Part shown: positions 16,634-42,149 of the stretch, piece after piece
Numbering within the stretch: the stretch's first letter is position 1
How the letters are laid out: each line of letters begins with the position of its first letter
DNA from: a bacterium
GTDB lineage: Bacteria > Patescibacteriota > Gracilibacteria > Peribacterales > Peribacteraceae
DNA length: 57,163 nucleotides
Assembly: GCA_029558515.1 (NCBI GenBank)
Contig: JAKQEM010000024.1
Span: 1-57,163, forward strand
Direction: 5' to 3'
Translations under genes and position numbers: made by a program
Notes under the pieces: model-generated
Databases searched by the model: none
What the model was told of the DNA's origin: nothing
Seen by the model: only the letters and a program-made list of their open reading frames with translations

Positions 16634-17899
16634 TCAAAACGGCTTGGCATACTGCGCATCCTTCCCCAATTCTTCTTCGATACGGAGAAGCTCATTGTAC
16701 TTGCAGACACGGTCCGTACGGCTGAGGGACCCGGTTTTGATCTGCCCCGTGCCCAGAGCGACGGCGAGATGCGCAATGAACGTATCCTCGGTTTCACCGC
16801 TCCTATGACTGACCACCGCCGTCCAACCTTGTCGCTGTGCGAGCGCGATGGCATCCACCGTCTCGGACACGGAACCGATTTGATTGAGCTTGATGAGCAC
16901 GGAATTCACTGCCTTCTCATCGATGGCACGCTTGATGCGCTCGACATTCGTCACCAGCAGATCATCGCCGACGAGCTGCAATCGATCGCCCAGTTGCGCC
17001 GTCATGTGCGCAAATCCCGCCCAATCATCCTCTGCGTGAGAATCCTCGATACTGACAAACGGGTAGCGCTCGATCAATGCCGCGTAGTACGCCGTCAAAT
17101 CGGATGCGGAAAAATCACGACCGTCCACATGATACGTACCGTCCGTGTAAAATTCCGATGCGGCGGCATCAATGCCGATCTTGACCTTTCCGCCATAACC
17201 CGCTTCATCAATGGCTCGCGCCATGAAGTCAAATGCCTCCTTCCCATCCCGCACGCGCGGCGCAAACCCACCCTCGTCCCCTACGGCCGTGATATGCCCC
17301 GCTTCCTTCAGTAATTTCTTCAAACCTTGAAAGACTTCCGCACCGGCACGCAGCGCATCACTGAATCGATCAAATCCGGCGGGAATGATCATGCATTCCT
17401 GAAACGACAAGCCGCTATCCGCATGCTTGCCGCCGTTGATGACGTTCATCATCGGAACCGGAAGCAGGGTGGGATGAGGAAAGCCAAACTGCTCCGCAAG
17501 GGACACGTACAGCGGTTTCTTCTCCGATTGAGCGCGCGCACGGCACAGCGCCATGGACACGCCGAGAATGGCATTGGCTCCCAGTTTCGACTTATTGGGT
17601 GTGCCATCCAACGCCAGAAGGGCCGCATCGATCGCACGCTGGTCTCCCGCCTTCATTCCTTGCAAGGCGGGAGCAATGACATCGCTCACATGGCGCACCG
17701 CCCGCAGCACCGATTTTCCACCGAACACTTTCTTGTCTCCATCCCGCAGTTCCAATGCCTCATGGGAACCGGTGGATGCACCGGAAGGAACGGCGGCACG
17801 ACCCGAGGATCCGTCGGAGAGAACGCAATCCACCTCGACGGTGGGTGTTCCGCGGGAGTCCAGAATCTGACGAGCAAGAAAAGTGGTGATGGTGGGCAT
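16634..17899 (-). CDS. eno: Enolase
   Basis: Glycolytic 2-phosphoglycerate dehydratase, also a possible RNA-degradosome scaffold in other bacteria. Diagnostic segments: '[16 protein letters not shown]' (residues ~10-25), '[16 protein letters not shown]', '[18 protein letters not shown]', the catalytic '[10 protein letters not shown]', '[11 protein letters not shown]', 'GDDLLVTN', and '[19 protein letters not shown]'. The 421-residue length from ATG 17899 is standard. A longer open frame upstream has no homology-like sequence. The ATG lies 6 bases after TATGAT, supporting this start and a leaderless mRNA. Confidence 0.97.
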
Positions 17900-17935: not shown

Positions 17936-17951
17936 TACAATGTACAAAGGT

Positions 17952-17969
17952 CCTACAGGGCGTCTCTCC
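17952..17969. repeat. 18-bp dispersed repeat, intergenic copy
   Basis: CCTACAGGGCGTCTCTCC is identical to bases 41464-41481, which lie inside a membrane protein gene. Only half of the palindrome present at the other copy is kept here. Confidence 0.6.
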
Positions 17970-17972
17970 CGC

Positions 17973-18824
17973 TCACACGACATTGCTCTTTCCCCGTCCG
18001 ATCGTCCGACGATGAATGGCCGCCGACGCACCCGCGAGGAACGCGACGGCCAGCGCTTCCACACCGAATCCCGATGAGGGAAGACGCGGCGGAATGCTGT
18101 CTCCCGTGCCGGTTCGCTGCTCCAAACCCATCGAAGCGATCTGCGTTCCCGCGCCGGGAGCCGTCACATCTATTCCGACCAATCCGCCTGTTTCCCCGCG
18201 CAGGAGTCGCTGACGACGCTGTTCCATCAGTCGCAATTCGATGCGCCACTGCTCCTCCAAAGGATCGGTGGAAGAAAGGAGATTGCCCGATGCATTCGTA
18301 CCAAAAGAGTCAAAAAGCCCTTCGTCCCACACCAGGGCCGTGAGAGAGCGGTCCCAGTCGGCGAGATCACTCCATGCTCCGAGAGCCAAAAACGGCAGAA
18401 GGACAAGCAGGAGTACCGTAATGCGCCTGGCGCGCTGACGGATGACCCGCACGCAAAACACGATGAGGAGAAGGAATGCTGCAAGAACCGCCGGCCCGGA
18501 CCAACACAAGGTAAAGAGCGTCTGTGCGAATTGAAAGGAAGGCACAGCGGACGCAAGCAATTCCAACGCAAGCCAAACCAAGAGGATCAGTACGGGAACA
18601 AAATGCAGCAAGCGAAACGGATAATCGGCTCGATGAGACCGCAGCGTCGGGTACAGGAGCAGCGGGTAGGCAAGACCCAGTGTGCATGCCGTCAACCACG
18701 GCAGTGCACTGACCGATACGGGCGGCAGAAAGGCACTCACCGCGCCCGCAAGCGCGATCATCAGACCCAGAAGGATAATGAGCCGCGTTTCCGTGTCGTG
18801 CTTCAGAGGCATAGGGTCGGCCAT
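17973..18824 (-). CDS. Hypothetical polytopic membrane protein
   Basis: Function unknown. About five membrane helices lie in the first 155 residues ('[19 protein letters not shown]', '[18 protein letters not shown]', '[16 protein letters not shown]', '[19 protein letters not shown]'). An extracytoplasmic-like loop of about 100 residues rich in Gly/Thr/Arg follows. A last helix ('[19 protein letters not shown]') before a basic tail resembles a C-terminal anchor. It lies 73 bp before eno and 28 bp after corA on the same strand. Confidence 0.6.
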
Positions 18825-39841: not shown

Positions 39842-40621
39842 TCACGCTCGCACACGCCGACTGCGCCAGATCCAAACGCCGATGACAATGAGTGGCAGCG
39901 TGAGCAGTTGCCCCGGCGTCAGCGTCACAAAGCCAACCTCCCACACGCCGTAGGGTTGCTCGCGCAGGAATTCGATCAGGAAGCGCAGCACGCCGTAGAG
40001 CATCAGAAAGAGCGCAAGCGTGCGACCGGGACGCGAGGATGCGTGGCGCACATGCAGAAAACAGACCGATGCGATCAGCACATCCTTCACGACGGCGTAG
40101 AGCTGTGTGGGATGGCGCAGTCCTTCGACATCGGGAATGGCAATGCCCCACGGCAACGTCGTGACCGTTCCGTACACTTCCAGATTGATGAAATTGCCGA
40201 TGCGACCGAATGCGAGACCGATGGCTGCAGGAATAACCAGAATATCGGCGATGGCAAGCATGTCCCTGCGCGATCGGTGACGCAGCGCCCACCCAATCGC
40301 CACCGCCACGCCGATCATGCCCCCGTGCGACGACATCCCTCCCTGCCATACCGCAACGATCTGCAGTGGATGCGCGATGTAATAGGCGGCAGCATAGAAG
40401 AGAACATACCCGATTCTCCCGCCCACAATGACGCCGACGACGGCCCACGAGAGCATGCGTGACCACTCATCGGAGGAGAGCTGCAACGAACGGAAATGCT
40501 GCAAACGCGGCACCAAGAACCATGCAAGAAGAAACGCTGCGAGGTACAGCAACCCGTACCAATGCACCTGCCAACCGAAGAGGTCGAGCGCAACCGCCCG
40601 CGAGGGAAAGAGATCAATCAT
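39842..40621 (-). CDS. lgt: Prolipoprotein diacylglyceryl transferase
   Basis: Transfers diacylglycerol from phosphatidylglycerol to the lipobox Cys, first step of lipoprotein maturation. 259 residues, about seven helices. Catalytic landmarks are intact: 'QGGMSSHGGMIGV' (His103-type), the signature 'GLAFGRIGNFINLEVYG' (Arg143/Asn146-type), 'RHPTQLYAVV', and 'RFLIEFLREQPYG' (Arg239-type). ATG 40621 overlaps the end of the upstream GT-C-like gene by 8 bp, so it is the last gene of the glycosyltransferase operon. A degenerate paralogue lies at 20602-21531. Confidence 0.95.
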   Translation of the reverse strand: MIDLFPSRAVALDLFGWQVHWYGLLYLAAFLLAWFLVPRLQHFRSLQLSSDEWSRMLSWAVVGVIVGGRIGYVLFYAAAYYIAHPLQIVAVWQGGMSSHGGMIGVAVAIGWALRHRSRRDMLAIADILVIPAAIGLAFGRIGNFINLEVYGTVTTLPWGIAIPDVEGLRHPTQLYAVVKDVLIASVCFLHVRHASSRPGRTLALFLMLYGVLRFLIEFLREQPYGVWEVGFVTLTPGQLLTLPLIVIGVWIWRSRRVRA

Positions 40622-42149
40622 GGGGAAGGGTGGGACACTCGACGCGCAGCAGGAGCGGCTCCACGGAGGGAACGAGGCATGGATCGTGCAGCAGAGAAAC
40701 CGCACGGTCGCCATAGTACGAACGGAAAAACGGTGAAACGAACAGATACGTGGAAACGGGGAGTGCTCGCAGAAATGCCTGTCTCTCCGCATCCGTTCCC
40801 AGCAAAAACTTCTCCCACTCCGCGTACGACCACGACGCATCGAAGAGCCCCGGTCCGCCGACCCGGTGATACGGCAGCCAGCCGCGCAGCACGACGACGG
40901 ATTGATTCTCCAGGCTCAGTACCAACGCATCGGCCGGGAGGAGGGAAGGCAATCGCTCGATGGCCGCAAATGTCTGCGCATCCACGATGGGCCCGCGCGT
41001 GCGCACGACGAGCACCATCACCATGCCCTGCGCCACCAATGCGGCAATGAGACATACGCGGACGGCACGGCGCTGGTAGCGCACCCAAAGATCACGAATG
41101 CCGATGGCGACAAACGGCAGAAGGAAGAAATCGAGCTGAAGGAGAAAGCGGCGGTAGAAGAGCAAACGCAGACACACGAACACCGCGCTCCACAGGAAAG
41201 CAAGCTGCCACACGGTCCAGCGTTCCCTGCGAACGTCGCCGACGAATCCGATGATGCCAAGCAGCAGAAGGACGCCTGAGGTTTGCAGATAGAAGAGTGG
41301 CGGAGGAAAGCTGCCCGCAGCCGCAACCGAACGATCGAGAAGCGCGGGAATGTGGACGAGTACGGCATCCTGCCAGATGGGTGCGTAGGTCGCGGCACCG
41401 ATGAGCACAATACACAGGCCGACTACCACCATCATCACACTCTGCCTCATCGTGTAAAGACGCCCTACAGGGCGTCTCTCCTTCTCCATCCGCATGGCAA
41501 TGGATGACAGAATAATCCACGTCCCAAACACGAGGCCAAACAGCAACCCCGTCTGATGGTGCGTGGCGACGGTGAGAATGCCCAGCGGCACGCTCCACCA
41601 GGAGCGATGCTCCAAAGCGGCGAAGGTGAGGATCATCCAGAAGAGCGCCGCGTACGTCTTCCAGTACATCGCCGCGAACCCATCGAAGAATGCAATCGAT
41701 AGCAAGGCCGCGAGCAACGTGAGCACGCCGACCGTAAGTCCGTATCTGCGGCGGATGATCCACGCGTAGATCGCGGCGAGGATGACGGGAACCAGATTCC
41801 ACATCCAACCGATGAGCCAATCGACGGGCAATCCGGCCTTCAGGAGAAGACTGGAAAAAAAGAAGAGTCCCAGCGGATGGCCGCGCGCCCACGGCGCCAG
41901 GTCCGGCAGGACAAAGGGCGGAAGCGCCTCCGCATGATGCACGAACAGATAGCGATAGAACCCCGGATCGTATCCCAGCGGCACATCAAAAACGAATAGC
42001 GGCCACAGAAACTTGATCAGAAGTCCGATCATCGCGGCCACACCCAGTACAGACGTTTCGGTGGAACGTCTCATGCCCCATCGTATCCAAGGCCCACGCA
42101 CCACGACATCCCACATCGTGAGCGCTGACGGAATGATGCGCGTGATCAT
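40614..42149 (-). CDS. GT-C-like polytopic membrane protein, putative glycosyltransferase
   Basis: 511 residues with about eleven membrane helices. The first extracytoplasmic loop contains 'FDVPLGYDPGFYRYLFVHHA', with the Asp-containing motif expected for lipid-sugar-using GT-C enzymes, and 'APWARGHPLGLFFFSSLLLK' follows. The C-terminal ~110 residues are soluble and extracytoplasmic. It starts as ATGA overlap with the upstream GT4 gene and ends overlapping lgt, so it is translationally linked to both. An 18-bp repeat palindrome is embedded at 41459-41481 in the loop coding 'EKERRPVGRLYTMRQ'. Substrate unknown; lipoprotein or surface-polymer glycosylation is inferred from context. Confidence 0.65.
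   Translation of the reverse strand: MITRIIPSALTMWDVVVRGPWIRWGMRRSTETSVLGVAAMIGLLIKFLWPLFVFDVPLGYDPGFYRYLFVHHAEALPPFVLPDLAPWARGHPLGLFFFSSLLLKAGLPVDWLIGWMWNLVPVILAAIYAWIIRRRYGLTVGVLTLLAALLSIAFFDGFAAMYWKTYAALFWMILTFAALEHRSWWSVPLGILTVATHHQTGLLFGLVFGTWIILSSIAMRMEKERRPVGRLYTMRQSVMMVVVGLCIVLIGAATYAPIWQDAVLVHIPALLDRSVAAAGSFPPPLFYLQTSGVLLLLGIIGFVGDVRRERWTVWQLAFLWSAVFVCLRLLFYRRFLLQLDFFLLPFVAIGIRDLWVRYQRRAVRVCLIAALVAQGMVMVLVVRTRGPIVDAQTFAAIERLPSLLPADALVLSLENQSVVVLRGWLPYHRVGGPGLFDASWSYAEWEKFLLGTDAERQAFLRALPVSTYLFVSPFFRSYYGDRAVSLLHDPCLVPSVEPLLLRVECPTLPHD
41459..41481. repeat. Palindromic 18-bp repeat inside the GT-C-like gene
   Basis: GACGCCC-TACA-GGGCGTC is a perfect 7-bp palindrome. Bases 41464-41481 are identical to intergenic 17952-17969. 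Confidence 0.65.

Follow-up and report, generated by a model that had tools for sequence, protein, structure and literature searches.

The window, by which we mean the whole stretch of 57,163 nucleotides analysed here, contains an exact 18-bp repeat, CCTACAGGGCGTCTCTCC, at positions 17952-17969 and 41464-41481. The second copy lies inside a gene on the minus strand (40614..42149) coding for a 511-aa membrane protein, described as GT-C-like in an earlier note on this DNA. The protein has no Pfam match at E<=0.001, and a search of solved structures with it returned nothing useful. The first copy is intergenic, between eno (enolase, 16634..17899, minus strand, start set at 17899 from the Enolase_N match) and an upstream ORF of 283 aa (17973..18824, minus strand) without Pfam match. 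The earlier note had reported the two copies as identical and as unlikely to arise by chance, and both statements are borne out. Scanning the window with up to three mismatches yields these two matches only, and dinucleotide-preserving shuffles of the window contain on average 0.02 matches to the 18-mer, none of 100 shuffles reaching two.

The 18-mer as such is nevertheless not the repeat unit. Throughout the genome (1.31 Mb in 49 contigs, 99.3% complete) it occurs in exact form just twice, both times in the window, and its looser genomic matches (up to three mismatches) are not significant alone, because the reversed control has four of them. In the gene, the perfect palindrome GACGCCC-TACA-GGGCGTC is present at 41459-41476, as had been noted before, and extends to an 8-bp stem, AGACGCCC/GGGCGTCT. 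The unit that recurs is a 28-bp palindrome, (GTAG)AGACGCCC-loop-GGGCGTCT(CTAC), of which the 18-mer is one end. We rejected the 18-mer as the unit because it has no third exact copy and the palindrome has more.

In the membrane-protein gene the palindrome takes the form GGAG-AGACGCCC-TGTA-GGGCGTCT-TTAC, spans 41454..41481 on the minus strand and is in frame, encoding KERRPVGRLY. It is predicted to form a DNA hairpin of -9.2 kcal/mol (z -2.99, DNA parameters) with an 8-bp stem and a 4-nt loop. The copy near eno (17942..17969, minus strand) is half-decayed: 17952-17969 is intact, the other arm is degenerate, and the computed fold gives no hairpin any more. It is located 43-70 bases upstream of eno and three bases from the stop of the 283-aa ORF at 17973. 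The earlier reading was incomplete in that it treated the 18-mer as the unit, missed the decayed palindrome and named no mechanism. Since the GGAG foot and the TGTA loop are common to both window copies, they probably represent one sub-lineage.

Next, we examined the distribution of the palindrome over the genome. The pattern GTARAGACGCCCTATAGGGCGTCTYTAC, with up to three mismatches, was found at four places, C35:58862, C38:69825, the window gene (41454-41481) and, as a GCGC variant, C23:15478, and its reversed control at none. A sister palindrome, GTAGAGACGTTCCGNCGGAACGTCTCTAC, occupies six places (control 0), and a further copy, found at C38:52870-52900, contains two extra bases. Further copies do exist, though as members of palindrome families and not as a third exact 18-mer. 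Over both families, the half-decayed eno copy included, we counted 12 copies, which is low for such a family; they are scattered over many contigs and have different flanks. The two families, AGACGCCC-TATA-GGGCGTCT and AGACGTTCCG-N-CGGAACGTCT, are closely related; the inner stem differs between them and symmetry is kept. Most non-coding copies have GTAG as the foot, both window copies have the variant GGAG, and the double foot GTAG...CTAC is present at C44:134868 and C47:634. Compensatory change among the 11 GCCC-type copies was weak: a single pair had changed in both partners, and 411 of 500 shuffles did no worse.

Each palindrome family lies at or inside a RAYT (REP-associated tyrosine transposase) gene of its own, the association referred to as REPtron. 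On contig C35 a RAYT ORF of 172 aa has the palindrome across its 3' end and takes its TAG stop from it. On contig C47, palindromes are found before, inside and near the end of a RAYT ORF of 228 aa, the inner one (C47:634-662) being in frame between HuH and Y. The C35 and C47 ORFs match the REP-associated tyrosine transposase model NF047646 with E-values of 3e-16 and 4e-18 and scores of 59.5 and 65.9 bits, which fall below the cut-off of 80 bits, and both are just under the Pfam Y1_Tnp cut-off as well. The Pfam search of the genome for Y1_Tnp reported one domain alone, within the leucyl-tRNA synthetase (LeuRS) gene discussed below; the stand-alone RAYTs came to light when the surroundings of the palindromes were read. 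The C35 palindrome is followed at the RAYT gene end by tandem half-repeats, CGTCTCTAC (L008:1501-1570).

At least five of the 12 copies lie within coding sequence. In-frame copies are found in the membrane-protein gene of the window, in trmD, dnaE and cysS (all three identities supported by Pfam) and in the C47 RAYT, so that four of them are in host genes without evident common function. In the membrane protein, dnaE and cysS, the reading frame would turn a GTAG foot into a stop (xxG-TAG). As an observation on small numbers, and not as a test, we record that the feet at these three places are GGAG, GGCG and GAAG, respectively, giving sense codons (GAG, GCG, AAG) in three cases out of three, and that where the frame leaves the foot open GTAG is kept in three of four copies, namely in the C47 RAYT and in genes of two relatives, with trmD (CGGG) as the exception. 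Because the non-coding eno copy also has GGAG, this foot may be older than the insertion of the copy in the membrane-protein gene. In the two relatives (L099 and L103) the same kind of palindrome is in frame and retains its GTAG foot; judging from their sequence, we take the ORFs to be TrpF-like and riboflavin-synthase-like.

Comparison with relatives bears on the earlier suggestion that the segment in the membrane-protein gene is an insertion. The earlier note had also named two findings that together would speak against its reading, a lack of further copies and conservation of the segment as protein sequence; neither was obtained. The window copy is read through as ERRPVGRLYT, and this segment is absent from all 29 homologues aligned (own gene aside), these being drawn from the best 30 places among matches in 46 genomes. 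At the segment, 27 of the 29 are shorter by 6-14 residues and the remaining two have an unrelated long loop. The segment indeed looks inserted. The clearest case is trmD: exactly at the palindrome, TrmD is five residues longer than in 12 of 12 relatives, a net gain of 15 bp; one of the 12 has a different insertion just before this place. In cysS (nine relatives) and dnaE (six relatives) the palindrome falls in a loop or linker whose length varies, so that insertion is not demonstrable by alignment. The inserts are not clean additions of 28 bp, the gain in the window gene being masked by loop variability, and the relatives compared include no same-genus genome giving a true empty site. The host loop may face the cytoplasm, judging just by its basic residues between two hydrophobic stretches. 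A tolerant basic loop, together with the open frame, would account for survival of the copy.

Beyond this genome, matches to NF047646 (E<=0.001) are present in 88 of the 144 genomes searched, own genome included. The palindrome is rare, being found in seven of the 144. One relative (G049) contains 14 palindromes of the GTAGAGACGCCCGATCGGGCGTCTCTAC type; most relatives have none. In-frame TGA is seen in genomes of the same class, which suggests placement of this genome in a candidate phylum close to Peribacteria or Gracilibacteria. In a collection of 84,980 species, the core pattern RAGACGCCCTNNAGGGCGTCTY was detected in 39 stretches outside this genome, belonging to many phyla. The double foot GTAG...CTAC accompanies it in 17 of the 39, the search pattern having left those bases largely free. 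Some of the other stretches with the core pattern are flanked by an A-run and a T-run and resemble ordinary terminators. One viral stretch contains the core pattern, too. In other phyla, too, the palindrome was expected to have RAYTs next to it. The HMM search revealed none in 52 palindrome-bearing stretches from outside the window genome (L099-L149 and L228, up to 8 kb each), although positive controls for the HMM worked (3/3, and 30/30 at loci from which 19 training sequences came). This result counts against tight local linkage outside this genome.

How do these palindromes relate to known elements? GTAG-tagged REPs, their RAYT genes and REPs located inside genes, dnaE and tRNA synthetase genes among them, are treated in the relevant passages of Di Nocera et al. 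2013 (PMC3733652). Those REPs and ours have in common a palindrome of 20-40 bp with a GTAG-type foot, dispersal, proximity to RAYT genes and the occurrence of some in-frame copies, DNA polymerase and tRNA synthetase genes included; a stem of ~6-13 bp with a short loop is typical of such REPs, in agreement with the 8-bp stem and 4-nt loop of the window gene copy, and our palindromes recur in multiple dispersed copies. They differ in that the copies number only about a dozen and carry a foot at both ends. The passages on GTAG REPs in that paper make no mention of candidate-phylum bacteria. The part of PMC6006769 on TnpAREP subclass 2.4 describes REPs with a double foot, as well as REPs that lie in frame within the transposase gene, after HuH and before Y. 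Similarity to this subclass extends to the GT[AG]G...C[TC]AC double foot, the in-frame REP between HuH and Y (C47) and the WQ motif, which is present in the RAYTs here. The motifs given there are NH[IFV]H and YIxNNP, whereas here the HUH motif is DHLH / DHMH and the Y motif YIDENP / YILHNP; because the HUH motif differs, we refrained from assigning the RAYTs to subclass 2.4. Rickettsia palindromic elements are likewise palindromic, inserted in frame into genes and read as protein, but, as characterised in the passages on them in PMC3733652, they are CGTC-tagged and reported without a dedicated transposase. With their GTAG-type foot and with RAYTs present, the palindromes studied here were not identified with them. 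PMC8266576 reports that REPs are processed in vitro by the TnpAREP belonging to them. A literature search for REPs in Patescibacteria, in those words, returned no paper.

Taken together, we are confident that the repeat is a double-foot GTAG-tagged REP, a non-autonomous mobile palindrome of the kind that a RAYT can recognise, here inserted in frame. In such a process, a single-stranded REP would fold into a hairpin, the RAYT (a tyrosine HUH transposase) would recognise the hairpin together with the foot, cut, and move or copy the REP elsewhere, and each of the two REP families would be served by its own RAYT gene. Mobilisation of these palindromes by the RAYTs is suggested by their association. 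Intragenic GTAG REPs and RAYT genes with in-frame REPs have already been published, and this system adds a case.

Other origins of the palindromes were considered. Copies are found immediately upstream of eno, def and rpsH, as might be the case if the palindrome served as an operator to which a regulator binds and its presence in coding sequence were incidental. We regard this as very unlikely in view of the share of copies in coding sequence and the lack of an evident shared function of the four host genes, of the inner stem that differs by family while symmetry is kept, and of the copies at and within RAYT genes. Very unlikely, too, is preservation as an RNA hairpin acting as terminator, attenuator or mRNA stabiliser. 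It would agree with the strong stem-loop predicted (with DNA parameters) in the window gene and with the eno copy beginning three bases past a stop codon, and REPs can have such side effects, as mentioned in part of PMC6006769; the window copies, however, have no T-run after them, the eno copy has no hairpin fold now, and in-frame positions inside genes are no place for terminators.

It is also conceivable that REP-like palindromes arise or spread through template switching during replication or through gene conversion, with no RAYT acting now. The net gain of 15 bp instead of 28 in trmD, the lack of RAYTs near copies in the 52 outside stretches and the foot and loop variant common to both window copies are all in line with this, yet the genome has two RAYT genes with matching palindromes, and we consider such an origin improbable. 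As to chance identity or an assembly artefact, to which the mere two exact occurrences of the 18-mer might point, it can practically be dismissed with shuffles and reversed-pattern controls at or near zero and with copies on many contigs in different flanks.

We turn now from the double-foot GTAG-tagged REPs to the transposase domain that the Pfam search had reported. A Pfam Y1 domain is present inside leuS (995-aa ORF, L037:1160-4147, contig C8), the only LeuRS match in this genome. Alignment search of 353 class genomes combined with locus reading revealed a RAYT-like HUH (Y1) insert in frame in LeuRS in 13 genomes: G000 (own), G031, G040, G002, G021, G064, G010, G046, G058, G027 (truncated at the end of its contig), and G339, G336 and G079, the last three from other families (loci L037, own, and L150, L188-L199 and L202). 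The insert is positioned between the catalytic core and the editing domain. The distance between the two LeuRS motifs is 164-219 residues with the insert, as measurable in nine of 13 loci, versus 18 without it (three loci). An HUH motif could be read in 12 of the 13 inserts; in L192 the pattern found none. Three genomes of the class (G079, G109, G100; L151, L152, L153) have an in-frame Y1 insert in what we take, from reading the sequence, to be isoleucyl-tRNA synthetase (IleRS), Pfam giving class I synthetase domains. A perfect palindrome, likewise in frame, is located between the HUH and Y motifs of these inserts. All ten proteins tested with Pfam (nine and own LeuRS) display both synthetase and Y1_Tnp domains. 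For three pairs of inserts dN/dS was 0.16-0.25, synonymous sites being close to saturated in two of the pairs. A search of open-licence papers for tRNA synthetases that contain a transposase domain yielded nothing relevant. At two further loci from two genera (L154, L155) a RAYT ORF is continuous with downstream sequence which, judging from its letters, is presumably HAM1/RdgB-like.

The insert of own LeuRS contains, at its 5' side, a perfect 30-bp palindrome in frame. Elsewhere in the genome this palindrome has two exact copies and one with two mismatches (control 0). The four dispersed copies of this leuS-type composite palindrome (C8:9447, C24:1251, C35:46526 and C19:4152; L229-L232) have in common a second, short palindrome located close by on one side. 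Perfect palindromes, counted when their arms are at least 13 bp long, were found in 12 of the 16 insert-bearing synthetase loci versus none of 19 synthetase-edge loci lacking an insert, four of 58 other gene loci and eight of 30 stand-alone RAYT loci. In 11 of the 12 loci the palindrome is within the longest ORF, and in G064 it is just before the ORF. This comparison of loci is the test that counts for the synthetase palindromes; their pairing and covariation are not independent evidence, because they were picked for being perfect. From these sequences, we tentatively propose as possible, if still doubtful, that in this bacterial class essential enzymes have taken up REP transposases, with an HUH domain in the editing-domain hinge of LeuRS (and in IleRS in another family) that may be under purifying selection, retain its HUH motif and still serve its own perfect palindromes.

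The palindromes and RAYTs described here contribute, from a small genome, a REP/RAYT system with two families and few copies, and they show how coding sequences absorb such elements. If the proposal concerning the synthetases is true, a synthetase gene would permanently house a system that mobilises REPs, and transposase domains in essential tRNA synthetases, together with the palindromes that accompany them, would be an unusual case of domestication or parasitism.
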